Shown in pieces: positions 6,837 to 24,059 of a stretch of DNA of 64,000 bases. The position numbers were made by a program, and so were the translations under genes. The notes under the pieces are model-generated. The model searched no databases. It was given only the letters and a program-made list of their open reading frames with translations, and had not been told where the DNA came from. The stretch's first letter is position 1, and the number at the start of each line of letters is the position of its first letter. Origin of the DNA: Gemmatimonas sp. (GTDB lineage: Bacteria > Gemmatimonadota > Gemmatimonadetes > Gemmatimonadales > Gemmatimonadaceae); NCBI GenBank assembly GCA_023910675.1, contig JAAVWC010000002.1, forward strand, positions 186,001-250,000, in the 5' to 3' direction.

Positions 6837-6873
6837 GGGAAGCACACGACATGATGCCCACAAACTCCAGATC

Positions 6874-7146
6874 ATGGTGCAGTACCCGTGGCACGCACTG
6901 CACGGGCAGGTGCTGGATGTTGAGCGGGAGCTGACGGCCGACGGCGAGCGCGTGTACGTCATCGCGCTCGACGATGAAAGTTTGACGCACTTGCCGGTGT
7001 GGATGACGGAGCCAGCCGCCGCGATCCCCGCGACCGTGGTCGCTGATCCGGTCGTGAGCGTGGCGGGACTCGCCGCTCTCCGGCGTCTGATCGATACGTG
7101 GCTTGACCCGGCCGGGTCCACGGCGAACGCTCGGAGACGCCCGTGA
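6874..7146 (+). CDS. DUF5372-like small protein
   Basis: 90 residues beginning MVQYPWHALHGQVLDVERE and continuing with an RVYVIALDDESLTHLPVWMT pattern, the form of DUF5372 proteins that accompany serine-recombinase transposons in proteobacteria (PWHPLFGREFE... type). First gene of the recombinase operon. Its TGA overlaps the GTG of the next gene, indicating translational coupling. Function unknown; probably involved in transposition control or architecture. Confidence 0.6.
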   Translation: MVQYPWHALHGQVLDVERELTADGERVYVIALDDESLTHLPVWMTEPAAAIPATVVADPVVSVAGLAALRRLIDTWLDPAGSTANARRRP

Positions 7147-7394
7147 GCCCCGTGGGCTCATCGTGGCGTGTGGCCCGTCTCTCACGTCCGAGGTTGTTCA
7201 TGACCCGTTCCCGTCGTCCCGCGCTCACTCCTTCGCGCTCCACCGATGCCGTGCAGGCCCACCTGGCCTTGAGTCACGGCAGCGTGTCGTGGCACGCCTT
7301 CCCCCTCCCTGTGCGGGAGCGGGTGCTGACGCTCTGGATCGAGCTGCTCAGGAGCCACGCCGACGCCGCGTCGACCGAGGAGCCGACGCCATGA
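7143..7394 (+). CDS. Small hypothetical protein in the recombinase operon
   Basis: Up to 83 residues, basic N-terminus and an amphipathic C-terminal half (LPVRERVLTLWIELLRSHAD). Starts with a GTG overlapping the preceding TGA (GTGA) and its own TGA overlaps the recombinase ATG (ATGA). An internal ATG at 7200 is an alternative start. No family recognised; the strict coupling on both sides suggests a stoichiometric or regulatory partner of the recombinase. Confidence 0.55.
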   Translation: MSPVGSSWRVARLSRPRLFMTRSRRPALTPSRSTDAVQAHLALSHGSVSWHAFPLPVRERVLTLWIELLRSHADAASTEEPTP

Positions 7395-9490: not shown

Positions 9491-9517
9491 CGAGGTGACG
9501 TAGTATGTCGCTACCTC

Positions 9518-9901
9518 AGGTGGCCCGAGAAAGAGGACGTTGGTCTTCTCGCGCAGATAGGAACACGTCGCCAGGGTCTCGATCTGTCGACGATCCGCCT
9601 TCGGCTGAAAGCCCCAATCAAACGCTTCCAGCGTCTTGCCTGGTGGTAAGCCCGAGAGCTTGAGCATGGTCGTGATGCGGCGCTCGTCTTTCCGCTCGAG
9701 CTGACTCGTGAGCAGCAGATCGAGGAAGGCGAGCGGGCTCAGGTCTTCGCGCGCGGCTTGTGCGACGAGCTCTGGCAGCACCAGCGCGGGATGCTCAAGG
9801 CCGAGCGTGGTGAGCTTGGCGACGACCGGGTCCAGCGTCGTCTGTCCACTCGCGGCGGGAACGGGCGGGCGGGCGATCCCGCGCTTCGGGAGCGTGCTCA
9901 T
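9518..9901 (-). pseudogene. IstB helper ATPase, 5' part
   Basis: Starts at the ATG at 9901, which overlaps the istA stop (ATGA). Encodes the IstB N-terminal domain, with LLTSQLERKDERRITTMLKL and EAFDWGFQPKADRRQIETLA, and then the first half of Walker A (NVLFLGPP) before the recombinase element begins. Reading into the insert adds about ten foreign residues and stops. Confidence 0.85.
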
Positions 9902-11208
9902 GACGGCTCCCCCACGAGGGCGTCGAGGAGGTGCGCGTACTGCGCCATCGGGCGGGCGACGGCCGACGGCGCCGGGAAGCGCTCGAGGACGGTCGCGGCC
10001 AGCTGCTGCTGCGCGCGACGCCCCAGCGGTGTGGGTGCGAGCACCTCGCTCGTGCTCTCGCCGCAGAAATGCGCGTCATCGATCACGAGACGCGCCGCGG
10101 TCCGGCGCGCATGGCGCGCAATCTCTCGCCCCTCGGCCCACACCACGACGTGCTGCGCCGTGCCGCGGACGTCGACGGTGCGACCGACCCACACAAAGGG
10201 CACCGTGTAGCGACGCCCCTCGAAGCTCACGAGGCAGTCGCGACTCACGCGCCGCGCCACGACACAATCGAAGAGCTCATGGAGCGTCGGCACGGGCTGC
10301 AGCAGGCGCTGCTCCTGGGCGAAGGCCTCCGCGATCAGCGAGCCGGTGATCGGACAGCGCCGCGTCGCGTGCCACTCCGCACTGCGCTCATCCAACGCCG
10401 CCTGTAGCGTGGGCACGTCGGGCCAGTCATGCACGAAGAGATCCGCAAAGTCGACCCGGGCGGTCCGCACCGCCCGCTCGGTCTTGCCCTTATCGCTGCC
10501 CATCGCGCGGCGACACGGATCGACGGCGAAGCCACACGTCTTCGCAAATGTCGCGAACGCGGGCGTCAGCACCGCCGTCGGCCCCGCCCCGGAGGCGACC
10601 GCAGTGCGCAGCTTATCAAGGCGCACCCACAACGGCACGCCGCCGTAGCGGGTGAAGATCGCCACGTGGCCGGACTGCCACGCAAGCTGATGCATCGTGG
10701 GACTCATCCACACAAAGCGGGCGCGCGAATGCGACAGCGTCCCGATCAGGCCGTGCAGCGGCTGGCGCGCGCCGCCAATCCGCACGCCGACGTCAAACCA
10801 ATCGTGCTGCGCCTGCACCCCGGCCGGCGTCTCCACGCGTCGAATCGCGCGCACGGCCGACGCCGGGAACGCGCGCTCCAGGTAGCGTCGCACGGACTGG
10901 TAGCTGCCCGCGTAGTCGAACTCGCGGCGCAGGACGCCGTGCACCACCGACGCCTCGACGCGATCCCTCGCCTCGCCCCCGACGCGCGGATCAGCAAAGC
11001 GCGCGAGCACCGCCGCGATACGGGCCTCCCATCCATGGACCACCGACTTGCGATCCCGACGCCCATCGGGCGCCGCCTCCGCGCGCGCTAAGTGATATCG
11101 CAGGGTCGACTCATCGACCCCGAAGTCCCGGGCCACCTGCCGCACCGGAACCTCCCGCGCCACCATCTCTCGCATCACCATCACATGCTCCTGCCGCAGC
11201 CGTGCCAT
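9898..11208 (-). CDS. istA: IS21 transposase IstA
   Basis: 436 residues. N-terminal helix-turn-helix (VPVRQVARDFGVDESTLRYH), then an RNase H-fold integrase core: GVQAQHDWFDVGVRIGG with the first Asp, the second Asp region around RFVWMSPTM to TRYGGVPLWVRLD, and GSDKGKTERAVR with the Glu, followed by the IstA C-terminal beta-barrel region (RRYTVPFVWVGRTVDVR). Intact and normal in length, but its partner IstB is broken by the recombinase insertion, so transposition would need IstB supplied in trans. Confidence 0.9.
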   Translation of the reverse strand: MARLRQEHVMVMREMVAREVPVRQVARDFGVDESTLRYHLARAEAAPDGRRDRKSVVHGWEARIAAVLARFADPRVGGEARDRVEASVVHGVLRREFDYAGSYQSVRRYLERAFPASAVRAIRRVETPAGVQAQHDWFDVGVRIGGARQPLHGLIGTLSHSRARFVWMSPTMHQLAWQSGHVAIFTRYGGVPLWVRLDKLRTAVASGAGPTAVLTPAFATFAKTCGFAVDPCRRAMGSDKGKTERAVRTARVDFADLFVHDWPDVPTLQAALDERSAEWHATRRCPITGSLIAEAFAQEQRLLQPVPTLHELFDCVVARRVSRDCLVSFEGRRYTVPFVWVGRTVDVRGTAQHVVVWAEGREIARHARRTAARLVIDDAHFCGESTSEVLAPTPLGRRAQQQLAATVLERFPAPSAVARPMAQYAHLLDALVGEPS

Positions 11209-11339
11209 GATCTCCTCCGTGCTGGGGGCCTCGGGCTGCTAGAGCCCAGTCACGAAGGGGGCCGCCTCCGGCGGCCCCGTCAATGGCGGCTGCGGGAATT
11301 TGCCTGTACATCGGTGCGGGAATTTGGGTGTACTTCTAC

Positions 11340-11397
11340 ACACTCCGTTCGCCTGCCGCATTGTTGTGAGGCCCCGCGGCAGAACTTTGCGTTATGC
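11340..11397 (+). repeat. Partial attC-like site (3' half), cut by IS21
   Basis: Contains ATTGTTGTGAGGCCCCGCGG then GGCAGAACTTTGC and ends in GTTATGC. The same block is present in the complete site at 18684-18790, where it is the right arm of a hairpin. The left arm is missing here because the IS21 right end starts immediately upstream. Confidence 0.6.
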
Positions 11398-11443
11398 GCA
11401 TCGAGGCAGGAATGGACGCGCGCGGCGGGGCTACTGGCGCGTT

Positions 11444-11462
11444 GTATATGATCAGCATATAC
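11444..11462 (+). promoter_or_regulatory. Palindromic operator of the brnTA operon
   Basis: GTATATGATCAGCATATAC has perfect 7-base arms around a 5-base centre and ends 7 bases before the brnT start. BrnA antitoxins autoregulate their operon by binding such operators; this is a sequence-based inference. Confidence 0.6.
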
Positions 11463-11469
11463 TTTCAGG

Positions 11470-11790
11470 GTGACTGATTTTTCCGCCTTCGCGGCCCGAC
11501 TGGCCGGCTTTGACTGGGATCGCGGGAATGCGGAGAAGAACTGGGCTCGGCATGCGGTCTCACGGAACGAAGCCGAGGAAGTCTTTTTTCATGAGCCGGT
11601 GCTGCTGGCCGAGGATGCCAAGCACTCCACCCGAGAGCCGCGCTACCTCGTGCTGGGCCGTACGGCGGCGGATCGGCGACTCGCGGTGATGTTTACCGTG
11701 CGTCGCGATCTGGTCCGTGTGATTTCAGCCCGGCCGATGAGTCGAAAGGAGCGAACCCTGTATGGCAAAACCCCGCACGAAGCCCCGTAA
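11470..11790 (+). CDS. brnT: BrnT-family toxin
   Basis: 106 residues from a GTG at 11470. Carries the BrnT signature: FDWDRGNAEKNWARHAVSRN, EAEEVFFHEPVLL, RYLVLGRTAADRRLAVMFTV and a C-terminal RVISARPMSRKERTLY. BrnT toxins are RelE-fold ribonucleases that arrest translation and are neutralised by BrnA. The 3' end overlaps brnA by 29 bases. First gene after the attC half-site, in cassette orientation. Confidence 0.85.
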   Translation: MTDFSAFAARLAGFDWDRGNAEKNWARHAVSRNEAEEVFFHEPVLLAEDAKHSTREPRYLVLGRTAADRRLAVMFTVRRDLVRVISARPMSRKERTLYGKTPHEAP

Positions 11791-12055
11791 GTCGATCCCG
11801 ACGTTCCGCTCCGAAGACGAGGAGCGGGCGTTCTGGGCGACGGCGGATACGTCCGAGTATTTCGAGTATCCGCAGGCGACCCGCGTGGCGTTTCCGAATC
11901 TGAAGCCGTCCACCGCGACGATCTCGCTGCGCCTCCCACAAGGGCTCCTCGACGAGCTCAAGGTGTTGGCGAATCAGCGTGATGTCCCGTACCAGTCGCT
12001 CCTCAAGGTGTACTTGGCGGAGCGCATTGCCGCCGAACGGCGCGCGAGCGCATAA
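11762..12055 (+). CDS. brnA: BrnA-family antitoxin
   Basis: 97 residues: IPTFRSEDEERAFWATAD near the N-terminus and TISLRLPQGLLDELKVLANQ, the ribbon-helix-helix DNA-binding part of BrnA/CopG-type antitoxins, followed by YQSLLKVYLAERI. Overlaps brnT and shares its promoter; expected to bind both toxin and the palindrome upstream of brnT. Its TAA lies inside the following attC-like site, as usual for integron cassettes. Confidence 0.85.
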   Translation: MAKPRTKPRKSIPTFRSEDEERAFWATADTSEYFEYPQATRVAFPNLKPSTATISLRLPQGLLDELKVLANQRDVPYQSLLKVYLAERIAAERRASA

Positions 12056-12168
12056 CGTATCGCTGCTGCCGACAGCGACGATGCGGTGCGCCGTGTAACT
12101 GCGGCGCTGACGCGCCTCCGTTCACGGCTATTTGTGAAGAGTCGCTGCAGCAGAGCGCAGCGTTAGAT
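12051..12168 (+). repeat. attC-like recombination site
   Basis: Begins at CATAACG overlapping the brnA stop and ends in GTTAGAT (12162-12168). CGCTGCTGC near the start pairs with GCAGCAG near the end, giving the folded-hairpin organisation of integron attC sites. 118 bp. Confidence 0.65.
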
Positions 12169-12258
12169 GGCTGACTGGCCTCGCCGCAGTGCCGGCCGTC
12201 GATTCTTCGCACGCGCTAGACTTTAAGTACACCTACCAAGCCTAAACCACCTGGATCG

Positions 12259-13740
12259 ATGCCAAGCTATAAGTGGGAGCGACTAGAGCCGCTGAGCCCT
12301 GATGATCGGTCAATTGACCTCGCGGCGATCCGGCCGCTCTATGAGAGCTGGCATACTCTCCGGAAGCAGCTCAAGGAGTCTAGTCCCGGTAGCCTAACCA
12401 AGTTCTCTGCTGAGCTCGTCCGACGCCTTAGCGTTGAAACGGGAATCATCGAGCGCATCTACGATGTGGATCGGGGCACCACAGAGGTTCTTGTCGAGGC
12501 GGGCTTTAGAGAAGATCTGGTGGCCCGCTCGGGCACAGATGTGGAGCCGGCGCGGCTCATTACGATCCTGAAAGACCACGAAGCCGCAATACAGCTTGTG
12601 ATGGATTGTGTCGGTCAGAGCAGAGCGCTGACCAAGGGGCTCATGCATGAGCTTCACGCGACATTAACGCGGCACCATGAGACTACCGTCGCCGTCGACC
12701 AGTTCGGCAAGCACTTCGAGGTTCCGCTACAACACGGAAAGTTCAAGGATCAGCCGAACAATCCAGCGCGACCAGATGGAATCGTTCACGAATACTGTCC
12801 GCCTGTTCATGTAGATGCAGAAGTAGATCGACTTCTCTCCCTGATCGAAGAGTACCAAGAGGAGGATCCGATCATCGTTGCGGCATGGTCTCATCATCGC
12901 TTCACACAGATCCATCCGTACCAAGACGGAAATGGTCGTGTTGGCCGCACGTTGACCACGATGCACCTGCTTCAACACAACCTGCTTCCGTTGGTTGTTG
13001 ATCGAGATCTTCGCCCAGAGTATCTCGATGCTCTTGAAGCCGCAGACTTCGGTGATCTGACTGCGCTTGCACAGCTCTTCGCCCGGCTACAACGGAACGC
13101 CATCCTGCAAGCGCTTAGCATCGACACCAGTGCTGTGCCGGCAGATACTCGTTCGCTGTCCTCCTCAGTCATCGACAGCATCGGCGCGAAGCTCGCAAAG
13201 AAGCAGCAGCAGAAGCACATCGAGTATCGCGAAGTAAACAATCTCGCACTGGCACTTCGAGGTACAGCGCGACTCAAGGTGCAAGCGACCCTCAATGCCT
13301 TGAAGGAATCGGTGGCCGTACTGGCTGAGCCGGACATCCATATTCGGAACGGGGGGCCAGATCAGGGGAACTCGCATTGGTACAAGTTCGACGTGATCAA
13401 GTCGAGCGAGCGTTCCGGAAAGTTCGTGAACTTCACTGAAGACCACTACTTCCTAAAGTCCACGTTTCGACTTGTCCGAGAGCGACTCGTCTTTGTCGTT
13501 TCGTTCCATCACGTCGGCCGGGAGCTTACAGGAATTATGGAGGCCACTAGCTTTGCTCGGCTCGAATCGTTCGAGGGCTCAGACGATCGAGAGAGTATAG
13601 CGGAGGAATTCACGCCATGTTCGCTCGAGCCATTCGTCATCACGTGGCAAACAGAGCAGAATGAGATTCGCGCCGCATTCGAACGGTGGTTGGACTCTGC
13701 TCTCGCTGTCGCGATCAAGGAGTTCGGCGACCGCCTTTAG
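12259..13740 (+). CDS. Fic-domain protein (predicted AMP-transferase), cassette-borne
   Basis: 493 residues. The Fic motif HPYQDGNGRVGR carries the catalytic His at residue 219, preceded by WSHHRFTQI. In the N-terminal part, ETGIIERIYD (residues 60-69) sits where class II Fic enzymes carry the autoinhibitory (S/T)xxxE(G/N) helix; Thr61 and Glu65 are present but the next residue is Arg66 rather than Gly/Asn. The C-terminal 200 residues resemble a winged-helix regulatory part. Local GC content is lower than in the neighbouring core genes and the gene is flanked by attC-like sites, both signs of acquisition. No separate antitoxin gene is next to it. Confidence 0.85.
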   Translation: MPSYKWERLEPLSPDDRSIDLAAIRPLYESWHTLRKQLKESSPGSLTKFSAELVRRLSVETGIIERIYDVDRGTTEVLVEAGFREDLVARSGTDVEPARLITILKDHEAAIQLVMDCVGQSRALTKGLMHELHATLTRHHETTVAVDQFGKHFEVPLQHGKFKDQPNNPARPDGIVHEYCPPVHVDAEVDRLLSLIEEYQEEDPIIVAAWSHHRFTQIHPYQDGNGRVGRTLTTMHLLQHNLLPLVVDRDLRPEYLDALEAADFGDLTALAQLFARLQRNAILQALSIDTSAVPADTRSLSSSVIDSIGAKLAKKQQQKHIEYREVNNLALALRGTARLKVQATLNALKESVAVLAEPDIHIRNGGPDQGNSHWYKFDVIKSSERSGKFVNFTEDHYFLKSTFRLVRERLVFVVSFHHVGRELTGIMEATSFARLESFEGSDDRESIAEEFTPCSLEPFVITWQTEQNEIRAAFERWLDSALAVAIKEFGDRL

Positions 13741-13799
13741 CTGAGGTCGCTCTCAAGAGGCATCGCCAGTTTGCGTACCCTCGCGGCTCGCGCTCGCCA

Positions 13800-13908
13800 T
13801 CTAACCTTGCGTTGCTATTGACAGGGCCGCTGCGGAGTGCTCCCTGTTCGCTGCGCTCACTGGTCGCAATTTATTGAAGGGCCCTGCAAGAGAACGCGAG
13901 CGTTATAC
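13800..13908 (+). repeat. attC-like recombination site
   Basis: Starts near CTAACCTTGCGTTGC and ends in GTTATAC. GACAGGGCC near the left pairs with GGGCCCTG on the right, and TTGCGTT with AACGCGAG. The end motif departs from GTTRRRY by one base. 109 bp, about 60 bp after the Fic stop. Confidence 0.55.
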
Positions 13909-13980
13909 CTCAAACGTGCTTTACTCTCACTAAGCAACGGCTTTCCGAGAAAACACCCACCGCTATTCCGGAGTACATGT

Positions 13981-14259
13981 ATGAGCTGGGGTCGAATGCT
14001 GCTGTTGGGAAACGTGGGGCAGCAACTTGATATCGAGGATATCGAGGATGATATGGTCCGCCTGCGCGCCCGCATTACGAGTCAACAAACCACGGATCGT
14101 AGCCAGGATGCGGCGCTTATCACCCTGCGGCGCGAGGTCACGGATCTGAAACTCGTCGTGGGGGAACTTGCCCGCCTCTTGGTCGCCACTGGGGCGTTGC
14201 CCGCCGAAGCCGTTGAGCGGTTGGTGCGTGGCGTAGATCGCACTGCCGCTACTCCGTAG
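13981..14259 (+). CDS. Small coiled-coil hypothetical protein, cassette-borne
   Basis: 92 residues from the ATG at 13981 (an ATG at 13996 is also possible). LGNVGQQLDIEDIEDDMVRL is followed by a predicted coiled coil (VTDLKLVVGELARLLV) and a short acidic/basic tail. No family recognised. It lies between two attC-like sites in cassette orientation. Confidence 0.5.
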   Translation: MSWGRMLLLGNVGQQLDIEDIEDDMVRLRARITSQQTTDRSQDAALITLRREVTDLKLVVGELARLLVATGALPAEAVERLVRGVDRTAATP

Positions 14260-14267
14260 CAGACTTG

Positions 14268-14355
14268 ACCTCACCGTGACGCTTCGACGAGGTCGACGCA
14301 GGAGCGGGCCGTCGACCATTCTCGCCCACTGAAGTATACTCAACAAGCGTTGGAT
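14268..14355 (+). repeat. attC-like recombination site
   Basis: Ends in GTTGGAT, a perfect GTTRRRY. CGCTTCGACGAG (14280-14291) pairs imperfectly with CTCAACAAGCG just before the end motif, and GTCGAC occurs in both arms. It also contains TATACT near 14334, which could serve as the -10 of the hicB promoter. Confidence 0.5.
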
Positions 14356-14375
14356 TCGTTCCCGTGGAGGATTCC

Positions 14376-14582
14376 GTGTTTCTGACCCTCGAAGTTGATC
14401 GTGAAACGGATGGCCGATTTATGGCTGAGGTACCTGATCTTCCGGGCGTTCTCGCCTACGGCGTGACGGAACAAGAAGCGGTGGCGCGCGTGCAGGCGCT
14501 CGCGCTGCGCGTGCTGGCGGATCGACTAGAGAATGGCGAGCCGGTGCCGAGCCTGCTGCCGCTCGATTTTCGCGCCGCGTAG
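14376..14582 (+). CDS. hicB: HicB-family antitoxin
   Basis: 68 residues. FLTLEVDRETDGRFMAEVPD and LPGVLAYGVTEQEAVARVQ are the HicB partial RNase H-fold core. The GTG at 14376 is preferred because GGAGG lies 5 bases upstream; a GTG at 14364 is in frame. HicB sequesters the HicA ribonuclease. The antitoxin gene precedes the toxin here. Confidence 0.85.
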   Translation: MFLTLEVDRETDGRFMAEVPDLPGVLAYGVTEQEAVARVQALALRVLADRLENGEPVPSLLPLDFRAA

Positions 14583-14600
14583 TCGCTGAGCGCGCTGCAG

Positions 14601-14813
14601 ATGAGTGAGTGGCCGTCGGCGAAAGCGCGGCGTGTAATGGCTGCGCTCTTGCGCATCGGTTGGACCGTGAAGCGAACAGCGAGTTCCCATAAAGTCTTGG
14701 CCCGGGACGGTTGGCCGGATACGGTGTTCGCCTTTCATGATGGGGACGAAGTGGGCCCACGGATGCTCGCCCGCTTGGCGAAGCGAACGGGATTGCAGCC
14801 TGAGGACCTGTAA
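14601..14813 (+). CDS. hicA: HicA-family mRNA interferase toxin
   Basis: 70 residues with the double-stranded-RNA-binding-like HicA fold. The catalytic His is His30 in RTASSHKVLARDGW, and the C-terminus has MLARLAKRTGLQPEDL. Encoded 18 bases after hicB in the same cassette. Confidence 0.85.
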   Translation: MSEWPSAKARRVMAALLRIGWTVKRTASSHKVLARDGWPDTVFAFHDGDEVGPRMLARLAKRTGLQPEDL

Positions 14814-14831
14814 AGCGGCCGATATGCCGAC

Positions 14832-14922
14832 GCATAAGGATGCTTGCTGCAGTCGGGCGTACACGGTAGCGCGCTCCGCGCGCATCATGTTTGAGCGCCC
14901 GCTGCAGAAGCCAGCGTTAGGT
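14832..14922 (+). repeat. attC-like recombination site
   Basis: Begins around GCATAAGG, has GCTTGCTGCAG in the left arm and CTGCAGAAGC in the right arm, and ends CCAGC-GTTAGGT, a perfect GTTRRRY end. 91 bp, starting about 20 bases after the hicA stop. Confidence 0.65.
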
Positions 14923-14928
14923 GGATCT

Positions 14929-15420
14929 ATGAAGACTCCTCGCAAGTCTGATCTCGAAGTAGGGAAAGGCCGGATTATTCGAAGATTCACAGAGCAAGAA
15001 GCCCGGCAGCTCGTCAGAGAATGGATTGGCGTGTACGCAAAGCATGCTGAGGGAGCCAATATCGAGGCATTCCTCTGGCATGCGTTCAGCTCCGGCGTAT
15101 TTCCATCCGTTTGCAAGCGAGAGGCAGAGCTGCAATACGCCGAGCAAGTTGCTTCGGAGATTGTCGTTCTTTCGAATGATCGAGTATCGGCCCTTCTGAC
15201 TGATTCGTTGCCGACGCAATGCAGCGTTTCGGACTATCTGGTGTTCCCAAAGAACCTTGCATGGTCGATGGCATTTACTCATGAAGATGGATGGCTGGGG
15301 CCCTACTTCGCGAAGAATGCAAGCCACGATTCTCTGGTTGCCGAAAACATCAGGCGTAGTCGCGATATGCAGCGCAAAACGCTGGAGGCCGAGCGAGCCA
15401 AGCGCGAGGGTTGGCTGTGA
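14929..15420 (+). CDS. DUF4275-like hypothetical protein, cassette-borne
   Basis: 163 residues from the ATG at 14929, just after the attC end. The centre has ARQLVREWIGVYAKHAEGAN and the C-terminal part DYLVFPKNLAWSMAFTHEDG followed by WLGPYF, a pattern recalled from DUF4275 proteins (small, unknown function, some in immunity-type loci). The GC content is lower than its surroundings. Assignment tentative. Confidence 0.55.
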   Translation: MKTPRKSDLEVGKGRIIRRFTEQEARQLVREWIGVYAKHAEGANIEAFLWHAFSSGVFPSVCKREAELQYAEQVASEIVVLSNDRVSALLTDSLPTQCSVSDYLVFPKNLAWSMAFTHEDGWLGPYFAKNASHDSLVAENIRRSRDMQRKTLEAERAKREGWL

Positions 15421-15427
15421 TAGATCC

Positions 15428-15500
15428 ACCCAACTATTCGTTCAAGCGGACAGATCAATCGCTTTGCGATTGATGCTGCCGCTTAACTCACGCGTTAGCA
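15428..15500 (+). repeat. attC site, canonical in both core motifs
   Basis: Begins with ACCCAAC (matching RYYYAAC) and ends with GTTAGCA (close to GTTRRRY). CAAGCGGAC in the left arm pairs with GCCGCTT in the right arm, around the inner palindrome ATCAATCGCTTTGCGATTGA. At 73 bp it has the compact size of textbook attC sites. The clearest site in the array together with 19338-19427. Confidence 0.75.
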
Positions 15501-15518
15501 CGCTACGGGCTCTTGTGC

Positions 15519-15836
15519 ATGTCCGATCTATCCCGTCCCAAGTTGCACGCCGAATACCGTGAGCTCCGCGACCTCCTGTGCGCGTGGGATCCAATCGGCG
15601 TGATGGATGATCCGGACTGGCCGCGCGACGAGTACGACTGTCTGGTCGCACCCGTTTTGCGACGACTCGACGCCGGAGAATCGCCCGAGTCTCTGGCCGC
15701 GTTCCTTGAAACAGAGGTACGCGCTCATTTCGGAGCGGAACCGGTGACAGATGCGGCGCGCACGTTCGCTGAGCGCGCCGAAGCGTGGTATCGACAACGC
15801 CGGTTTGGGGCCGATCTAGCGCCGTCGAGTACGTAG
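15519..15836 (+). CDS. Hypothetical protein, DUF1871-like, cassette-borne
   Basis: 105 residues from the ATG at 15519. RDLLCAWDPIGVMDDPDWPR-DEYDCLV resembles small DUF1871-type proteins (WDPxGV...WPxDEYD). The C-terminal half is helical and acidic. Lies directly after a canonical attC. Function unknown. Confidence 0.55.
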   Translation: MSDLSRPKLHAEYRELRDLLCAWDPIGVMDDPDWPRDEYDCLVAPVLRRLDAGESPESLAAFLETEVRAHFGAEPVTDAARTFAERAEAWYRQRRFGADLAPSST

Positions 15837-16077
15837 TCAGTCTCGCCGCGCATGCCCGCCGATGTGTCACAAAAAGTATCGGCGCGGCCAACGCTGTAAC
15901 GACCGTTCAGGTTTGGTGAGTCGATGCCAGATACGCCTTCACATGTCGTCGTTCCAGTCCGTCCCACTCCGGCAATCGCTATCCCGTGCAGGCGTGCCAA
16001 CGCCGGTTGCTGCTGACAACGTGGCCGACCGTCCAGACGATGGATAGAGTTCAGGTGGCCACTTTGCAGCAGAACCC
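15837..16077 (+). other. Intercassette region, possible degraded attC
   Basis: No convincing gene. CGGCCAACGCTGTAACG at about 15884-15900 resembles the start of an attC, and TGCCAACGCCGGTTGCTGCTG near 16000 has attC-like composition, but neither can be paired with a clear GTTRRRY end before the IS1182 element starts. Confidence 0.3.
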
Positions 16078-17463
16078 ATCGTTGTGGCTGTAGAAAACGC
16101 CGCAACGCACCTCCGGTGAAGGCCGCGCGTCGCGCAAATACGCGGCGCGAAAACATTGGGCATTGGTGAACGGGTCTTTTCGGCGGATTTCCGCCGTGAT
16201 CCCATCATGGGGGACGGCGCGGACGCCTCCCGGTGTGTCATTTACGCGGCATCCCCCGCGTGGGTGAGCGTTTCGATGGTGTGCACCAGACAGAAGAGCA
16301 GCCACTGGCCGTTCACTTTCGTGCGGCCGCGCAGCGAGAAGCGATCCAGTCGCTTGTTGTACCGCACGTTCGCGAACACCGGTTCGACGGTGGCGAAGCG
16401 TCGCCCGTCTTGCTCGCGCCCCTCGGGCGTATTGAGGCGCTGCGGCATGCGCATCGTGGGCGTCTCGGCCTCCGCGTTCTCTCGCCCGCGAAAGAACGCG
16501 ACGTTGCGGACGACGGTGCGGGTTGGCGTACGCAAACATTGGTCGCGCAACGCACACGGCGCGCAATCGCGCGTCGCGCCCTGAAAGTGTTCGCCGACAT
16601 ACCCGTTCGTGATGTTGCGGGCCCCTCGGCGGTTCAGCGACTTTCCGGCGGGACATATACAGGTACGCGCGTCAGCGTCATACGTGAAATCACTCGGCGC
16701 AAACACCGGCAGCGTCTTCTTCACGGCGCCCGTGCCGTGCGCCTGCGCATCGACGATGATCTGATGCTTCGCATCGACAGCGGCTACCCCCGTGTAGCCT
16801 TGGATCACGCCCTTGTCCGTCGCCATCTTCGCGGCCGCCTCCAACTGCTCCGCCCCCTGCGTGAACTCGGCCCGCGTGCCGCTCCGATGCTTCGACGCGT
16901 TGCTCGGGAGCTTGACACCATCAATCGCGAACATCTCGCGCCCAATCAGGCCCTGGCCGTCGCCTACCGCCAGCACCGCCGCGAACACCGGCGCAATGTC
17001 GTCGCGCCGCGCGCTCACGAAGTGGGCGATGGTTGTGAAATGCGGCGCGGTCATGCCGCACAACGCCATGAACGTCACGTGCGCTTGGCACACGCGTTCA
17101 ATGGCCCGGCTACGCACGATCCCCTGGGAATAGGCGAAGAGCACCACTTTGAGCAACATGGCCGGCGGGTACGCCGGCGCGCCGGTCGCGTCATTCTTGA
17201 AGCGCGCGTCGCAGTGGACGAGATCCACCTCGTGGTCGAGCAGGTGGTTCAGCGCGTGCTCGAACGTGCCGGGCAGCAGCTGGCGCGCGAGGTCAACGCT
17301 CAGGAACTGCGGGTTGGTATCGAGGGACTTGTCGCGGGCCATGACGGATGCGCGACCGCGAGACGAAACGACACCACATTCGATACACGACCAACCCGTG
17401 GCGTGCCGTTGAGTTCCGTTTCCACATTGGCCTGCTTCGGGACTTTTCCTACAGCCTCGTTAT
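16078..17463 (-). mobile_element. IS1182-family insertion sequence
   Basis: The left end CGTTGTGGCTGTAGAAAACG matches the right end read inward (ATAACGAGGCTGTAGGAAAAG), giving imperfect terminal repeats around one transposase gene. About 1.39 kb. It interrupts the cassette array between the DUF1871-like gene and the addiction module. No target duplication could be confirmed by eye. Confidence 0.65.
16242..17342 (-). CDS. IS1182-family transposase
   Basis: 366 residues. The N-terminal DUF772-type domain covers FKNDATGAPAYPPAMLLKVV and LFAYSQGIVRSRAIERVCQA; FAIDGVKLPSNASKHRSGT carries the first catalytic Asp; the middle has VDAKHQIIVDAQAHGTGAV; the C-terminus has the Cys-rich CAPCALRDQCLRTPTR region and RFSLRGRTKVNGQWLLFCLV typical of IS1182. 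Appears intact. Confidence 0.85.
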   Translation of the reverse strand: MARDKSLDTNPQFLSVDLARQLLPGTFEHALNHLLDHEVDLVHCDARFKNDATGAPAYPPAMLLKVVLFAYSQGIVRSRAIERVCQAHVTFMALCGMTAPHFTTIAHFVSARRDDIAPVFAAVLAVGDGQGLIGREMFAIDGVKLPSNASKHRSGTRAEFTQGAEQLEAAAKMATDKGVIQGYTGVAAVDAKHQIIVDAQAHGTGAVKKTLPVFAPSDFTYDADARTCICPAGKSLNRRGARNITNGYVGEHFQGATRDCAPCALRDQCLRTPTRTVVRNVAFFRGRENAEAETPTMRMPQRLNTPEGREQDGRRFATVEPVFANVRYNKRLDRFSLRGRTKVNGQWLLFCLVHTIETLTHAGDAA

Positions 17464-17529
17464 GCCGAGTGGCGCAGGACTTGGGGCTCAGTGGTATTTT
17501 TCGGGGAACCCCACCAAGAGGATTCACCA

Positions 17530-17775
17530 ATGGTTCGGTCTTCCGACAGCCTCGAATCGCAGCTTCTGACCCTGCCGCCAGCTGATCGCGCGAGGCTGGC
17601 GGAGTTGCTATTGGCCAGCCTGGATACCGACCTCGACGCGGGTCCTGCCACTGCGATTGAAGATGCTTGGCGTGAAGAGGCCACGATCCGGCTCCAGGAG
17701 CTTCAAGCGGGAACGGTGAGCGGGATCCCTGCCTGGCAGGTATTTGAGGCCGCAACCCGGCGTCTCGCGCCATAA
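17530..17775 (+). CDS. Addiction-module antitoxin component
   Basis: 81 residues beginning MVRSSDSLESQLLTLPPADR then ARLAELLLASLD, with EDAWREEATIRLQELQAGTV, the pattern of the putative addiction module component family paired with ParE/RelE toxins. A purine-rich AAGAGG lies about 8 bases upstream of this ATG, which is why it is chosen over an upstream GTG. The following toxin gene starts within its stop codon region but is itself broken. Confidence 0.7.
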   Translation: MVRSSDSLESQLLTLPPADRARLAELLLASLDTDLDAGPATAIEDAWREEATIRLQELQAGTVSGIPAWQVFEAATRRLAP

Positions 17776-18066
17776 TGGCGCTCATGGCCGAGTTCCACCC
17801 GGAGGCGCGGGCGGAGTTCGATGCCGCCATGGAGTACTACGAGCTCATGCGACCAGGGCTGGGATCTGCTTTCCTTGCCGAGGTGCAAGCCGCGACCGAG
17901 TACGCGCAGCGCCTGCCCCAGGCGGGCTCGCCCGTCAGCGACGAACTGCGTCGCACATTCATTCGGCGGTTTCCCTAGTATTTGCTGTCGTGGCGAGACG
18001 GCGATACCTTCTCGTGATGGGGCCGTGGCGCGGGCCGCGTTCCCCGTTTAGTCCCTCCACAGTGAT
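17775..18066 (+). pseudogene. RelE/ParE-type toxin, nonsense and frameshift mutated
   Basis: MAEFHPEARAEFDAAMEYYE and DELRRTFIRRFP match ParE/RelE family toxins (HPEAxxEl...aa.yY...; ...RRFPYxllY). After RRFP the next codon is TAG; continuing past it gives YLLSWRDGD in the same frame, and further homology (RYLLVMGPWRGPR) appears in another frame. At least one nonsense and one frameshift change therefore remove the C-terminal beta-sheet needed for activity. Confidence 0.65.
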
Positions 18067-18138
18067 CGTGTCCTTCCCGTTCGCGGCTGCGACGTGACGG
18101 TACGACCACGACCTGCGCTCCTGCCTTCGGGGGCCCCA

Positions 18139-18627
18139 ATGTCTGTTTCGATTCGTTTTGGTATCGTAGCAGTATCCGTCCTGCTAGTGGGCTGCACCTC
18201 GCAGCAAAGCGTGCAGCTCGAACCGCAGCCAGCCGGAGCGCTCGCGGGCAGTTACAAGCTGACTGGCCTCATCGACGGTACGCGCGTAAGTGCCACGTTG
18301 CGGGTTGATGACAGCTCTCGCGTCTCGAGAATCACCACCTCGCCGAATGGTACGCACGCCTGTGATGCGTCGGAGATCCGCTCGGATCAACTGGTAGCCC
18401 GGTGCGGCCCAGTGGAGGTCCAGCTCACTGTGGCTGACAATCGCATCGCCCCGGTTGGCCGTTTGAGCTTCCAAGCGGCACGGCGCCGTAAAGAGGGGGG
18501 CGACCTGTTTCAGTGCAACTACTCTCCCCCCGATCGGTTGTGTCAGTTGCCACCGCAATATCCCGCTACACCGCTTCCGCGCGCATATGGTCGAGTAAAG
18601 GTGGCGCGAGCATCGATCAACCAGTGA
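18139..18627 (+). CDS. Predicted lipoprotein, cassette-borne
   Basis: 162 residues from the ATG at 18139. N-terminal MSVSIRFGIVAVSVLLVGC has a basic start, a hydrophobic core and the lipobox LLVGC, so it is predicted to be lipid-modified. The mature part carries two short beta-rich segments and several Cys residues (HACDASE, ARCGPVEV, FQCNYS, RLCQLPP). No family recognised. Followed by an attC-like site. Confidence 0.6.
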   Translation: MSVSIRFGIVAVSVLLVGCTSQQSVQLEPQPAGALAGSYKLTGLIDGTRVSATLRVDDSSRVSRITTSPNGTHACDASEIRSDQLVARCGPVEVQLTVADNRIAPVGRLSFQAARRRKEGGDLFQCNYSPPDRLCQLPPQYPATPLPRAYGRVKVARASINQ

Positions 18628-18683
18628 TCGCAATTCGCACGAGTGCAATCGAGCTGCACACGGAGTGTAAGCAGTCGCAGTAG

Positions 18684-18790
18684 GCATAACGTTCGCTGCT
18701 GCCAACGGGGCTGATCAGGGAGTGCGACTGGTTCACTGCGTTCGCCTGTCGCATTGTTATCAGGCCCCGCGGCAGATCTTGGCGTTCGGC
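18684..18790 (+). repeat. attC-like recombination site
   Basis: GCATAAC at the left and GTTCGGC at the right. The arms are strongly complementary: GCTGCTGCC pairs with GGCAG, and GGGGCTGAT with ATCAGGCCCC. The right half is nearly the same as the truncated site next to the IS21 element at 11340-11397. 107 bp. Confidence 0.65.
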
Positions 18791-18821
18791 GGGCGAGGCG
18801 CACTCCCGGTAGATTTCAGCC

Positions 18822-19079
18822 ATGCCGGTCATCTGCCGCTTTCTCGGGATCGCGATTGCCATCCTGTATCGGGATCACGACCCCCCGCATTTTCACGCCG
18901 CCTATGGCGAGTACGAGGTCACGGTGGGTATCTGCGACGGCGTGGTGACGGGACGGTTTCCGCGACGCGCCTTGGTGCTGGTGCTGGAGTGGTTGGAGCT
19001 GCACCGGGATGAACTGATGGCGAACTGGGAACGGGCGCGGGCTCGCGAGCCGCTTCTCCCGATCGCCCCTTTGGAATAG
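18822..19079 (+). CDS. DUF4160 protein
   Basis: 85 residues: MPVICRFLGIAIAILYRDHD then PPHFHAAYGEYEVTV, the diagnostic core of DUF4160 (F.gi.I.m...dH.PpHfHv.yg). Usually found as a pair with DUF2442, as here, and suspected to be toxin-antitoxin related. Separated by 10 bases from the next gene. Confidence 0.8.
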   Translation: MPVICRFLGIAIAILYRDHDPPHFHAAYGEYEVTVGICDGVVTGRFPRRALVLVLEWLELHRDELMANWERARAREPLLPIAPLE

Positions 19080-19089
19080 GGGAGGGCGC

Positions 19090-19338
19090 GTGCTTCACGT
19101 AACGGACGTCCGGCCAGCCGGTGGGTACCGTCTCTGGCTCCGGTTCAACGACGGACTCGAAGGGGAAGTCGATCTCAGTGCCGAGCTTGACGGTCCGATC
19201 TTCATGCCGCTCAAAGATCCCGCGCTGTTCAGCCAAGTCCATATCGACCCGGATGTGCAGACGATTGCCTGGCCCAACGGCGCCGATTTTGCGCCAGAGT
19301 TCTTGCGAGCTTTGGTGGCACAGCGAACCGCCGCGTAA
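19090..19338 (+). CDS. DUF2442 protein
   Basis: 82 residues starting with GTG: MLHVTDVRPAGGYRLWLRFN and IAWPNGADFAPEFL are the conserved beginning and end of DUF2442 proteins. Partner of the preceding DUF4160 gene. The TAA overlaps the first base of an attC site. Confidence 0.8.
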   Translation: MLHVTDVRPAGGYRLWLRFNDGLEGEVDLSAELDGPIFMPLKDPALFSQVHIDPDVQTIAWPNGADFAPEFLRALVAQRTAA

Positions 19339-19427
19339 CTCAACGCTGCAGCAGCCAGCGCAAACGAAGGATGGCGTACTGCGCGCGCCCCTTGTTGCAG
19401 GCGCTGCTGCAGAGCTCGGCGTTAAGC
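19338..19427 (+). repeat. attC site, perfect core motifs at both ends
   Basis: Begins with ACTCAAC (RYYYAAC) and ends with GTTAAGC (GTTRRRY). Left arm CGCTGCAGCAGCC and right arm GGCGCTGCTGCAG are nearly perfectly complementary. 90 bp. Last recognisable site of the array. Confidence 0.8.
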
Positions 19428-19537
19428 ATCGCTTCCAGTCCGCAGTGCGCGACGCCGCCCGAGCAGCCGCGAACATTCGGTAACCGCCGCTGCCGCTTGA
19501 ACTTGACGCGCCGTACCCGGCGCCGTAGCGTGAGGCC

Positions 19538-19765
19538 ATGAGCCTCCTCGACCGGATCAGCCTCGATCCCGTCATTCGCTTCGGCAAGCCCTGCGTCCGC
19601 GGCACCCGCATCACGGTGGGCGACGTCCTCGGCTATCTGGCCTCGGGCATGACCGAAGCACAGGTCCTCGCGGATTTCCCCGACCTCACGCACGAGGACA
19701 TCCTCGCGTGTCTCGCCTTCGCGGCCGAGCGTGAGCGCCGCATCATGCCCGTCCCCGCCCCCTGA
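19538..19765 (+). CDS. DUF433 antitoxin-like protein
   Basis: 75 residues: MSLLDRISLDPVIRFGKPCV and RGTRITVGDVLGYLASGMTE are hallmark DUF433 sequence (dP.i.fGkPcirGTRi.V..il..l..G). DUF433 proteins pair with DUF5615 PIN-like toxins, encoded 11 bases downstream. Lies just past the last attC; no attC follows it. Confidence 0.8.
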   Translation: MSLLDRISLDPVIRFGKPCVRGTRITVGDVLGYLASGMTEAQVLADFPDLTHEDILACLAFAAERERRIMPVPAP

Positions 19766-19776
19766 CGGTCTCGCCC

Positions 19777-20025
19777 ATGGCGCCCCGCCTGTTGTTCGAC
19801 GAGAACCTGGCGGCGCGCCTGGTCGGACTCCTGCAGGCCGAGTATCCCGGCTCGGTCCATGCTCGTGATGCGATCGGGCGTGCCGCCACCGACGAGCAGA
19901 TCTGGGAGTACGCGCGCACGGCCGCTTTGGTGATCGTCACGAAGGACGAAGACTTCCAGCGGTTCAGCGTGTGGCGGGGCTTCCCGCCGAAAGTGATGAT
20001 GAGTGAGGATCTGGTCGATCACTGA
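19777..20025 (+). CDS. DUF5615 PIN-like protein, 3' end altered
   Basis: 82 residues: MAPRLLFDENLAARLVGLLQ, GRAATDEQIWEYARTAALVI and VTKDEDFQRFSVWRGFPPKV are the DUF5615 core with the conserved acidic residues (DEN, D-E, KDEDF). After FPPKV the family normally continues for 20-30 residues; here the frame runs into a block also seen at 6280-6305 and 28626-28650 (GTGAGGATCTGGTCGATCAC) and stops. The toxin therefore has a foreign, shortened C-terminus and may be inactive. Confidence 0.75.
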   Translation: MAPRLLFDENLAARLVGLLQAEYPGSVHARDAIGRAATDEQIWEYARTAALVIVTKDEDFQRFSVWRGFPPKVMMSEDLVDH

Positions 20026-20027
20026 GG
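20004..20027 (-). repeat. Short IS91-tail-like block at a gene junction
   Basis: The minus strand encodes SVIDQILTH, the same residues that open repeat copy B at 6305. Here only about 24 bases are shared. It marks the exact junction between the DUF5615 gene and a TonB-receptor fragment. Confidence 0.4.
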
Positions 20028-20236
20028 CCGGCGTGATGCTCGGCGAGCGTGCGGCCGAAACCCGCGCAGGCGCGGCGCGACTGTTCGTGTATCTCGAGAA
20101 CCTCACCAACGTGCGACAGACACGGGTGGATCCCCTGGTGCGTCCATCGCGGGGGCCCGGTGGCCGCTGGACGACTGATGCGTGGACGGAGCTCGTGGGC
20201 TTCACGGTAAACGGGGGCGTGCGCTTCGGATTCTGA
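20028..20236 (+). pseudogene. TonB-dependent receptor, C-terminal fragment
   Basis: The frame ends LFVYLENLTNVRQTRVDPLV ... WTELVGFTVNGGVRFGF, the final beta-strands of an outer-membrane TonB-dependent receptor with the terminal aromatic residue. Only about 65 residues remain; everything upstream is replaced by the DUF433/DUF5615 segment. Non-functional remnant of the ancestral chromosome at the array border. Confidence 0.65.
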
Positions 20237-20283
20237 GTCGCAGCGCCCAATCCATCACGCTCCCGCCGACATGTCCTCGGCGC

Positions 20284-22401
20284 TTACATCTGCCGCAGCC
20301 AACTCAGTTTGACGATCAGCGACCGTGCCATTGGCGTGGTGCCATTGAGCACCGCCTGCCGATCGTTGTACACCACGTACAGGAACGAGAGGGGCGAGAA
20401 CTCCCAACTGAATCGCGCGTTGAGTGTCCCGCGCTCGACGGCGGTATTGTACTGAAAAAACGCGCTCCATTGAACGCGCGGGTTGAGAAAGACGCGGAGC
20501 TCAGGTCCAGCGAGGTGCGTGACAAAACTGGAATCGCGAGTGCCGAGCGAGCGCAGCCAATTCACTTCGTACGCACCGCGCAGCACGACGTAGGGACTCG
20601 GTGACCAGCGAGACGACAGCTCGACGCGCTCGAGCGAGCCGTCAAAGAAGTCGCCCGCCGACACGATGCCCGTTGCGGCAAACCGGGCACTCTGATCGCT
20701 GCGAAGCACCAGGCCAACCCGCGAGTAGTTATGCATTCCCGGTGCAATGCGCACATTGGGAAACAAGACCACCGGCGCCAGCGGACGCTGATAGTTGTGT
20801 TCCACCGACGGGGCAATGCTCGCGCCGTTGCGGAACAACAATTCACCAGAAAACGCCACCTGCCCTTCTTGCAACACGAACGTGGTCGGGTCTTGATAGG
20901 CGATGGCCGTGGGTCCATGGCGAAGCCACACGACGCTCTTCGGCAGCCAACGCGGCTGCGCCGTACACGAGACGAACGGGCCGGTCATCAGCACATTGGG
21001 ACGGGACACGAAACCGGTTTGCGGTTGGTAGTCCCTGGTAACCAACGCTCCGGTGACGCCTGCGGCGAAATCGGGGGTCGCGTGCGAAAGACCATACGTG
21101 GCCGCGATCCCCGTTCGCCCGTCAACGGTGGAGGTCGAGAACATGCCCGCGAGCTGGTTCTGCTCACCGAGCCGTGTGAACGCATCGAAGGCGGTTACCA
21201 CGTTCTGCGTGCCCTGCCCATCGGCCGTTTGGCCATCACGAAGCGCCACGGTCGCGCCAAGGCGTGTGGCGCGTCCAAAGAATTGACTGCCGCGCGCGAC
21301 GGCAAAGCAAGAGCGTGCCGTCATCGGCCAAGCCAATGCGGCGCGAGAAGAAGGGCTGCACGATGTAACGACCCGTCAAACCACCGGCACTCAACAGGTC
21401 GGCATTCTCCAAAAAGAACTGTCGACGTTCAGGGAAGAACACACTGAAGCGCGTCAGATTGACCCCCTGTCGATCGACATCCGCCTGCGCAAAATCCGTG
21501 TTGGCCGTCGCTTCGAGCAGACTGTTCGCCGTGGAGGCCCAAATCACTTCACCGCCAACATCGCCGAGCGTGCCATTGAACGCGCCGCGCGTGCGATCAG
21601 TTGTGTGTTGTCCAAGGGCGTACGGGCGAATTCGCACGTTCGCCCGCGGAGGTGGTGGCGCCAGTGAGTCGAGTACGCCGCCGAAGGTGAGTCGCCAGGA
21701 CGAGAACTGCCGCGGATACGGCATCCACGCGCTCCACTGCGCAACGCGACGAGTATTACGGACGAAGTTGACATCCCACGACGTGAGCCCAGGGGCATAG
21801 CGCAGCGACTGCCACAGAATCGCCATTTCGGCCATCCAACCGCTGTCGGCACGTGTGGTCCGGACGCGCCACAAGGCGTCCCAGTTGAAGTTGGACACAT
21901 CGCCACCATCGAACGCCTGCACGTCGCCTTGCGATCCCATGGGCGTGACTTGGAATTGCAGGGCGGTGCGATGATCACCGAGTGGTCCGAAGGTCACGCC
22001 AAAGACATCGGTTTCGGGCGGCTCGAAATCGCGACGCAAATCGGGCAGCCGAAGCGATTTCAGCCCCGCGCTGTCGCGGTTGAACGCCCCCACATAGAGA
22101 TATTCGTCATCATGAGTACGCGGACTTCGCTGGGATACTTCGTGGTCGTGTTGAAGTCTGGCCGCACCTGAAAGAAATCGGCGGCGACAGGTGCCGCTTG
22201 CCAGCTCGCTTCGTCCAAACGCCCATCAATCACGATTTTCGCGAGGGCACGTCGGGCCACCAGGTGCCGTCGCGTGGCCTCCGTGGGCTCGGGAACTTGC
22301 GCAGACTGTGCGCGCACCGAACGAGCAGCAAGCAGCGCGAGGATCGTGAGGCCGACCGAGCAGCGCCGCGTCAGCGTGTGTGATTTCGAACAGGGCGTCA
22401 T
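20284..22401 (-). pseudogene. DUF5916-type outer-membrane protein with two frameshifts
   Basis: The N-terminus (from 22401) has a signal peptide and a CBM9-like start (KIVIDGRLDEASWQAAPVAA, FFQVRPDFNTTTKYPSEVRV). The frame then breaks near 22115: the expected HDDEYLYVGAFNRDSAG follows in another frame. That frame runs to FFSRRIGLADDGT near 21300, where a second shift leads to GSQFFGRATRLGATVALRDG and the beta-barrel C-terminus (LSWLRQM). The three pieces together equal one protein of about 700 residues. Both shifts are single-base-size events; sequencing error cannot be excluded. Confidence 0.7.
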
Positions 22402-22554
22402 CCGTGAAGACTACGACGGGCGGTACGGAATGTCTAACGCTGAATGCCCGACAAACGGTACGTCGCAGCAGACGCCGCGGACGTGGCTGACTTGCGCTGC
22501 GCAGGCGCGTCAGATGACTTTCCCGTTGTAACGTATAACGAGACCTCCCCAGCG

Positions 22555-22905
22555 ATGACTATGACTCTGTACGGCATCCGCAACTGCGACACGATGAAGA
22601 AGGCCAGCGCCTGGCTCGACGCACGTGGCGTCGCGTATACGTTTCACGACTACAAGATCGCGGGCATTGATGCGGCGACGCTCCGCGCGTGGGCGACGTC
22701 TGTTGGCTGGGAGAAGCTGCTCAACCGCGCGGGCACGACATTCCGTGGGCTGGCGGATGCGGACAAGGCCAACCTGCATGAGACCAAAGCGATTGCGCTG
22801 ATGGTCGCCAACCCGAGTCTGATCAAACGTCCGGTATTGACGGGCGTGGTTGAGGGGCCGCTGGTGGGGTTCAGTGTAGCAGCCTACGAGGCAGCGTTGT
22901 CCTGA
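22555..22905 (+). CDS. ArsC/Spx-family (YffB-like) thioredoxin-fold protein
   Basis: 116 residues from the ATG at 22555. MTLYGIRNCDTMKKASAWLD carries the N-terminal Cys motif NCDTMKKA of YffB-type proteins; AWATSVGWEKLLNRAGTTFR and PSLIKRPVLTGVVEG are the conserved central and C-terminal parts, with the Arg/Pro (KRP) motif. Related to arsenate reductase but normally not specific for arsenate; the in vivo role of YffB is unclear. Complete. Confidence 0.85.
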   Translation: MTMTLYGIRNCDTMKKASAWLDARGVAYTFHDYKIAGIDAATLRAWATSVGWEKLLNRAGTTFRGLADADKANLHETKAIALMVANPSLIKRPVLTGVVEGPLVGFSVAAYEAALS

Positions 22906-22930
22906 TCATCCGCGTGCGGCGCTCACGGTC

Positions 22931-23581: not shown

Positions 23582-24059
23582 ATGCCTGTTTGCCGATCGA
23601 ACGCTGGATGCTGCCGCATACCCTTCAACAAGGGTGCGGGCGCTCAGCGCCCGCGTCAACCGCGTGGCCGTCGACCGCACGCATCGTGGGACGGCGAGAA
23701 GTACGTGGCCACGTTAGACCTCGTACTGGCGCACTCGAGCGCGTACGATCAGCGAGGTGTGGCCATCGTCTGGCCCTGCGTCCCGAAAATCGTGCGGCGC
23801 TTCGTGGAGTCGAAGGAGCACGTCGGGTACCGGGCGACGCTGCAGGCGACAGCGCTGCTGGGCACCGACGCGCCCGCCGAGTAGTTGCGGCATGTGGAGC
23901 TGCGCCTGAACGATGCGGGGGTGGCCCAGTCCTGCGCTGACTGGAGCTGTGCGCATCGCGAGCGCCCCCCGAGGGGATCTGCGCTGAAGTCGCCCCGCTG
24001 CTGCGTGCAGCGCCGGAAATCGCGGACCCGGTGCTGCACGCGAACGGCAGGGTTACCCG
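23582..24059. other. Region without an assignable gene
   Basis: A plus-strand frame (23685-23884) reads DGEKYVATLDLVLAHSSAYD and RGVAIVWPCVPKIVRRFVES. It is coding-like but has no start, no family that I recognise and no obvious partner; probably a gene fragment. Nothing else is supported here. Confidence 0.3.

Follow-up and report, generated by a model that had tools for sequence, protein, structure and literature searches.

What is a row of integron gene cassettes doing at a chromosomal place that has no integron-integrase gene? The question is raised by 64,000 nucleotides of a Gemmatimonas sp. genome (here G000, 4.55 Mb in 52 contigs, C1, C2 and so on), positions 186001-250000 of contig C2 (G000:C2:186001-250000). 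This whole stretch is called the window, and its positions are counted from its first letter. A preliminary description of it, made from the letters, had claimed a cluster of attC sites lacking integron-integrase (CALIN) with many toxin-antitoxin modules. The region is a genuine CALIN of seven cassettes, toxin-antitoxin genes among them. The wider comparison suggests that it is one of several arrays that share a family of attC sites and have exchanged cassettes, and that the single integrase IntI encoded on C1 most likely acts on them in trans, copies of its recombination site attI included. We put the probability of this reading at roughly three in four.

attC sites and cassette order in the window

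A covariance model, R1, was trained on 12 attC sites of the array adjacent to intI on C1, with no window sequence included, and was run on both strands of the whole window with the filters off. It places seven attC sites within 12050-19427, all on the + strand and with scores from 82.1 down to 18.1 bits (Table 1), so that the attC array described between small co-oriented genes is recovered by a model trained outside the window. An eighth, cut by an IS21-type insertion sequence (IS), scores only 11.4 bits, and the resemblance by eye of this remnant, which ends at 11397, to the 3' half of the site at 18684 is the sole ground for calling it an attC. As a correction to the description, the GTT core of the site at 15995 is split by an IS1182-like element. 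A site with the core GTTGGAT that had been placed near 14349 has no supporting R1 match and is dropped, and the start of the last R'' moves from 19338 to 19333 (GCGTAAC). The four best sites stand on score alone, while those at 15428, 18684 and 15995 need the logic of the cassettes and their position in addition.

As a negative control, R1 was run with default filters on about 129 kb from relatives, eight loci (L062-L069) taken around the outer-membrane gene, and gave no match at E ≤ 1; an Rfam search of window positions 9000-22000 gave one chance match and no attC family. Bottom-strand folding of the seven sites gave z values of -3.45, -1.16, -3.26, -4.45, -4.85, -1.59 and -0.39. By this check, which the preliminary description had proposed for the hairpin with L and R boxes expected of attC, z is below -3 in four sites, and the other three, at -0.4 to -1.6, are not unusual by energy alone. 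A home-made scan for complementary arms found the true sites along with many chance pairs and was dropped for the covariance model.

The crossover in integrons falls behind the G of GTTRRRY, so the R'' of an attC is expected to be complementary to the opening bases of its own cassette, which lie behind the preceding site. R'' fits its own cassette start at 23 of the 28 variable positions (four positions in each of seven cassettes), against 11 of 28 for the control, R' of the same site, and it does better than its own R' in six of the seven sites. All 5040 reorderings of the cassettes give a mean of 13.6; six reach 23, including the observed order and its duplicate (one start occurs twice). The match is perfect in three cassettes, has one mismatch in two and two mismatches in the remaining two; in the last cassette the control R' fits better (6/7) than R'' (5/7). 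This test makes no use of the hairpin model, and the core at 17459 was taken as the core of the IS-split site.

The distant integrase, shared cassettes and attI copies

A CALIN is defined as a cluster of at least two attC sites lacking integron-integrase (IntegronFinder 2.0, PMC9024848). The window fits this definition with its tandem, co-oriented attC sites and no intI nearby: tblastn with two IntI proteins gave only matches with E > 1 in the 64 kb, which bears out the absence of intI noted earlier. A full-length intI is present on C1 (390 bits against a family cut-off of 265) and is the only match above the cut-off in G000. The genome-wide search for intI with matching attC sites, named in the preliminary description as a check, thus ends at one intI beside an array of the same attC family as that of the window, with one cassette in common. 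In G000, attC sites map to C1 397-469 kb (beside intI), C1 720-744 kb, C5 7.5-15.8 kb and the window, with a single site at C2 3.7 kb.

Over 777 bp, the shared BrnTA cassette has 96.8% identity to C1:449226-448450 in the intI array, and the similarity begins and ends at the crossovers. For none of the other six window cassettes did the G000 arrays compared contain a near-identical counterpart. The DUF4160/DUF2442 cassette has a counterpart in the intI-side array of the relative G012 (77.4% over 620 bp, ending at attC), and the first 235 bp of cassette 6 match, at 95.7% identity, a cassette of G008 that stands first behind a copy of attI; for the other four, no DNA counterpart was found in the loci compared. 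Judged by sequence, the window array probably belongs to a set of several arrays, because it has the same attC family as the intI array and one near-identical cassette.

The region of about 200 bp between intI and the first cassette ends in CTGCAGGCTAATNNNC directly followed by GTT. With at most one mismatch allowed, this motif occurs at three places in G000, all exact (Table 1), and at none in the reversed control, and two intI-less arrays of G000 carry an attI copy. The copy at C2:4.9 kb lies about 30 bp beyond a reading frame that by eye resembles cystathionine beta-synthase (CBS). A similarity search found this attI region (type 1) in 4 of 30 genomes of the genus, with a fourth place in G000 that is 70% identical, and a second type, located beside the intI of G042 and G008, in 7 of the 30; some pieces in these lists belong to one site, and the weak pieces are candidates.

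The genome of G042 is a single contig with one IntI match at E ≤ 1e-20. Its attC clusters are located at 396-400, 4309-4315 (beside intI), 4518-4519, 4659-4664 and 4674-4678 kb, and each of the four away from intI is headed by an attI copy. Two of these heads are type-2 copies (86-87% over about 205 bp), and two are type-1 copies (395.5 and 4519.7 kb) that match in part, mainly over the last 66-77 bp, which gives five attI-like sites in all, one beside intI and two of the five partial. As G042 is a single contig, its intI-less arrays are not explained by contig breaks, a conclusion that holds for G042 only.

At 8 of 11 intI-less attI copies, the R'' of the first cassette is exactly complementary to the start of that cassette, and two further sites behave likewise in a separate comparison. 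Seven of the eight do so at an attC scored by R1; for G000_B, the eighth, the fit is at a short end that reads like an attC in the sequence. Not counted as matches were G008_C109 (core mutated), G008_C96 (no match within reach, with an IS91-like copy between), G000_F (exact 7-mers, no R1 attC) and G042_d1 (7-mers not at a scored attC). Outside the match count stand G017_C45, L197 and L202 (where the contig ends 132 and 261 bp further), and L194-L196, L198 and L201 (motif not found). By these cassette starts, the attI copies look like insertion points.

The places of the copies are partly conserved. The upstream flank is kept at locus B in G000, G008, G017 and G042 (81-96% over about 1 kb), at the CBS locus in G000, G017 and G042 (89-96%) and at the d2/C234 locus in G042 and G008 (90%), and at each of the three the first cassettes begin with different bases. 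The attI at the CBS locus varies as well, being of type 1 in G000 and of type 2 in G017 and G042. A tblastn search with two IntI proteins for remnants of intI upstream of 15 intI-less attI loci gave nothing below E 0.1 and detected the control intI loci; the lone strong extra match, at locus B of G000, comes from a tyrosine recombinase in the first cassette there.

Origin of the intI-less arrays

In the proposed mechanism, the single IntI from C1 would excise cassettes as circles by recombination between attC sites and would reinsert them at attI, at other sites or at the attI copies elsewhere on the chromosome; it would thus act in trans on these copies and on the window array. The head of the window array, which may formerly have carried an attI, was cut off by the IS21 element, and one attC core was split by the IS1182-like element; the toxin-antitoxin cassettes would stabilise the array. 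We lean towards the broader view that the integron of this lineage is distributed, with one integrase, several attI docking sites at conserved loci (for example behind the CBS-like gene) and intI-less arrays that would be live satellites, and that many CALINs elsewhere may hide attI heads.

Several observations weigh against this reading. No attI motif within one mismatch is present in the window, so the array there is not seen to be headed by one; IS21 destroyed the head, the place where an attI would lie. Of the relatives, G008 is the most similar in DNA at the window locus, and no array lies beside the right flank there, which means that the window array is not a conserved platform. Three of the 11 intI-less attI sites fail in the comparison of cassette starts or cannot be scored. 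Weak IntI-like matches (E 0.17-0.18) were seen at 3 of the 15 loci searched for remnants, and the upstream sequence is short at some of them (75 bp at G008 C96). The G000 assembly is incomplete (84.87%, 52 contigs) and probably a metagenome bin, in which contig joins or a second intI could occur. Against some of the attC sites themselves stand R1 matches outside the array, of 30.6 bits at 23596-23692 on the - strand and of 20.6 bits at 35718-35800, both treated as false positives, and of 18.0 bits in the locus L025 of a relative; by score alone, the site at 15428 is therefore not above background, and those at 18684 and 15995 are no better than the best outside match. The isolated match at 23596-23692 (fold z -2.98) is probably due to chance. 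No other match outside the array regions reaches 30 bits in the R1 search of the own genome, in which 150 of 10096 first-look candidates were scored.

A published proposal for CALINs regards them as what is left of complete integrons (PMC9024848). That the arrays are such remains after loss of intI, with recombination no longer going on, is quite unlikely here: nothing like intI came to light below E 0.1 upstream of the 15 loci, the three loci with common upstream flanks differ across species in the start of their first cassette, and the shared BrnTA cassette is nearly identical in both arrays. Decay would agree with the IS elements that interrupt the window array and with its weak attC sites (18.1 and 11.4 bits), and it could still apply to the window array itself, since the head of that array is gone. 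In off-target insertion, the distant IntI would have placed the cassettes at a secondary, attG-like site next to the outer-membrane protein gene, and attI would have played no part. This is among the three origins of CALINs quoted in PMC8618304 and would suit the lack of an array at this place in G008. We regard it as possible yet doubtful, as two sister arrays have attI heads; the left junction, destroyed by IS21, offers no readable insertion site.

The neighbourhood of the array brings in a further alternative, namely that homologous recombination between repeats, and not an integrase, carried a part of the main array to this place. The sequence next to the distal end of the intI array in G000 (C1:382-394 kb) is contiguous in G008 with the right flank of the window array, and in G017 the equivalent of C1:376-384 kb adjoins window 22276-22908, part of the same neighbourhood. 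The window array thus sits at a rearranged place. Breakpoints of rearrangement lie near the array ends, at window 20276 and C1:393797. IS91-like copies, present in several arrays, also speak for such a move. A single inversion from the gene order of G008 or G017 was tried and rejected, since it would require the distal ends of both arrays to point outward, and none was constructed that yields the observed orientations. Such a move would also leave the attI copies with matching first cassettes elsewhere without explanation, and only one of the seven window cassettes recurs nearly identically in the other G000 arrays. An origin by splitting of the main array is therefore on the unlikely side, and action of the C1 integrase in trans remains our preferred reading.

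Should attI copies indeed keep intI-less arrays under the control of an integrase encoded far away, then activity is possible in CALINs, a single cell can have more than one first position from which a cassette is expressed, and several arrays could be stabilised together by their toxin-antitoxin cassettes. Rows of cassettes without intI may then be working satellites and not wreckage. Action in trans lends itself to a direct test, given the shortness of the attI copies and the single integrase found in each genome examined.

A CALIN with toxin-antitoxin cassettes is a known kind of object. The present one differs from a plain CALIN in that a distant intI array has the same attC family and a common cassette and in that sister arrays are headed by attI copies. 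It differs from a complete integron in that the window contains neither intI nor, with one mismatch allowed, the attI motif, the head being lost to IS21. According to PMC9024848, integrons typically have one attI, and attI sites outside class 1 are not detected by IntegronFinder; PMC3607928 likewise gives integrons only one attI. Three motif copies in G000 and five attI-like sites in G042, all putative as attI copies, depart from this. As in the Treponema-type chromosomal integron (PMC3607928), intI and the cassettes are co-oriented, with intI pointing towards attI, in all six genomes viewed (G000, G020, G004, G017, G008 and G042), while the five attI sites of the single-contig G042 are unlike that integron. 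The delta-attI-type gene cassettes of mobile integrons (PMC12901181, 2026), the closest case among the papers listed, resemble the present one in having attI sequence away from its usual place. There, parts of attI lie inside the cassettes of mobile integrons, whereas here attI regions head arrays at fixed chromosomal loci. No paper on gene cassettes of Gemmatimonas integrons was found in a literature search that covered few subscription journals, and none among the matches listed dealt with multiple attI sites or with chromosomal attI sites lacking intI, which is not proof of novelty. To our knowledge, and within the literature searched, several attI platforms served by one integrase have not been described.

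Cassette genes and insertion elements

Table 1 Sites, cassettes and insertion elements of the window array, and attI motif copies in G000 (window positions unless a contig is named)
Feature	Position	Strand	Evidence and content
attC 3' remnant	11338-11397, left edge estimated	+	R1 11.4 bits, not significant; R' GTTATGC at 11391; left side cut by IS21 element
attC of cassette 1	12050-12168	+	R1 82.1 bits, E 1e-21; R'' GCATAAC, 7/7 against cassette start
attC of cassette 2	13799-13908	+	R1 45.1 bits; R'' ATCTAAC, 7/7
attC of cassette 3	14832-14922	+	R1 60.2 bits; R'' GCATAAG, 5/7
attC of cassette 4, short	15428-15500	+	R1 18.1 bits, E 0.005; R'' ACCCAAC, 6/7
attC of cassette 5	15995-16087	+	R1 29.2 bits, E 3e-6; R'' TGCCAAC, 6/7; GTT core IS-split, core again at 17459 (GTTATGC)
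attC of cassette 6	18684-18790	+	R1 30.6 bits; R'' GCATAAC, 7/7
attC of cassette 7, last	19333-19427	+	R1 37.2 bits; R'' GCGTAAC, 5/7
Cassette 1	11392-12162	+	BrnT toxin 11470-11790; CopG/BrnA-type antitoxin 11762-12055; Pfam
Cassette 2	12163-13902	+	493-aa Fic protein 12259-13740; Pfam; PADLOC SoFic/PDC-S04 models
Cassette 3	13903-14916	+	92-aa protein without named family 13981-14259; HicB-like, below Pfam cut-offs, 14364-14582; HicA toxin 14601-14813; Pfam
Cassette 4	14917-15494	+	DUF4275 protein 14929-15420; Pfam
Cassette 5	15495-16081	+	107-aa protein 15513-15836; no Pfam family
Cassette 6	17460-18784	+	Unstab_antitox module 17491-17775 (Pfam); short ParE-like-looking frame 17775-17978; lipoprotein-looking 162-aa protein 18139-18627
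Cassette 7	18785-19421	+	DUF4160 18822-19079; DUF2442 19090-19338; Pfam
IS21-type element	9479-11337, right edge estimated	-	istA 9898-11208, N-terminal part of istB 9479-9901; Pfam Mu-transpos_C_2, IstB_IS21
IS1182-like element	16084-17458	-	Transposase 16242-17342; Pfam DDE_Tnp_1_6/DUF772; at cassette 5 attC core, GTT both sides
attI motif copy	beside intI		Motif search
attI motif copy	C1:747 kb		Motif search; heads second array
attI motif copy	C2:4.9 kb		Motif search; heads an array

Toxin-antitoxin cassettes are abundant in sedentary integrons, and the Vibrio superintegron carries them. Toxin-antitoxin modules are common to that superintegron and the present system, while here the arrays are shorter, occupy several loci and belong to another phylum. 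The contents named in the preliminary description were largely found again: BrnT with a CopG-type antitoxin, Fic, HicA, the Unstab_antitox module and DUF4160/DUF2442 all have Pfam matches, with only the HicB-like partner below the cut-offs. The 92-aa protein of cassette 3 has 71% identity to a frame in L100 (C1, about 709 kb). In cassette 6, the frame 17775-17978 has no Pfam match and, by eye, is cut short relative to its counterpart in a sister cassette; this addiction module may no longer be complete, with a toxin that is possibly inactive. A DUF433/DUF5615 pair at 19538-20025 lies past the last attC and is not counted as a cassette.

In the IS21-type element, which removed the head of the window array, a large serine recombinase gene (7103-9490, Pfam) seems to divide istB, a piece at 6371-6847 being IstB-like by eye (region 6371-11208). 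The element at 16084-17458 is presumably of the IS1182-like family, a name that we take from its domain content. It ends exactly at attC cores, with GTT followed at the boundary by G(A/T)GGCTGTAG; both ends were compared in the window and in array A, and the copies are 78-87% alike. The positions noted are window 16084-17458, C1:438.3 kb, C1:424.1 kb and L027:5417; for the attC near C1:424 kb and for G004 it is the left-end motif that was seen, as it was once in L133. The element is possibly an attC-targeting IS. Insertion sequences of the IS1111-attC type target attC; the insertion at the attC core is the same in both, with a DDE transposase here.

Two IS91-like elements occur in and beside the arrays. 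The smaller, of 1.7 kb (Y2_Tnp and Zn_Tnp_IS91 in the C5 copy), was compared in six copies, one of them at window 1-1281 (C2:185568-187281). Four of the six share an entire attC up to the crossover; a fifth continues into an attC where its contig ends, and the copy at the left edge of the window stops inside the attC. A distinct, 2.6-kb IS91-like transposon is located at C1:469621-472246 and C1:744681-747306, with a tyrosine recombinase by Pfam and a transposase by eye. IS91-like transposition was considered as a spreader of arrays and is not needed, because the 2.6-kb element behaves as an ordinary cassette: in two arrays it occupies the first place after attI, and it has a start that fits and an end that resembles attC.

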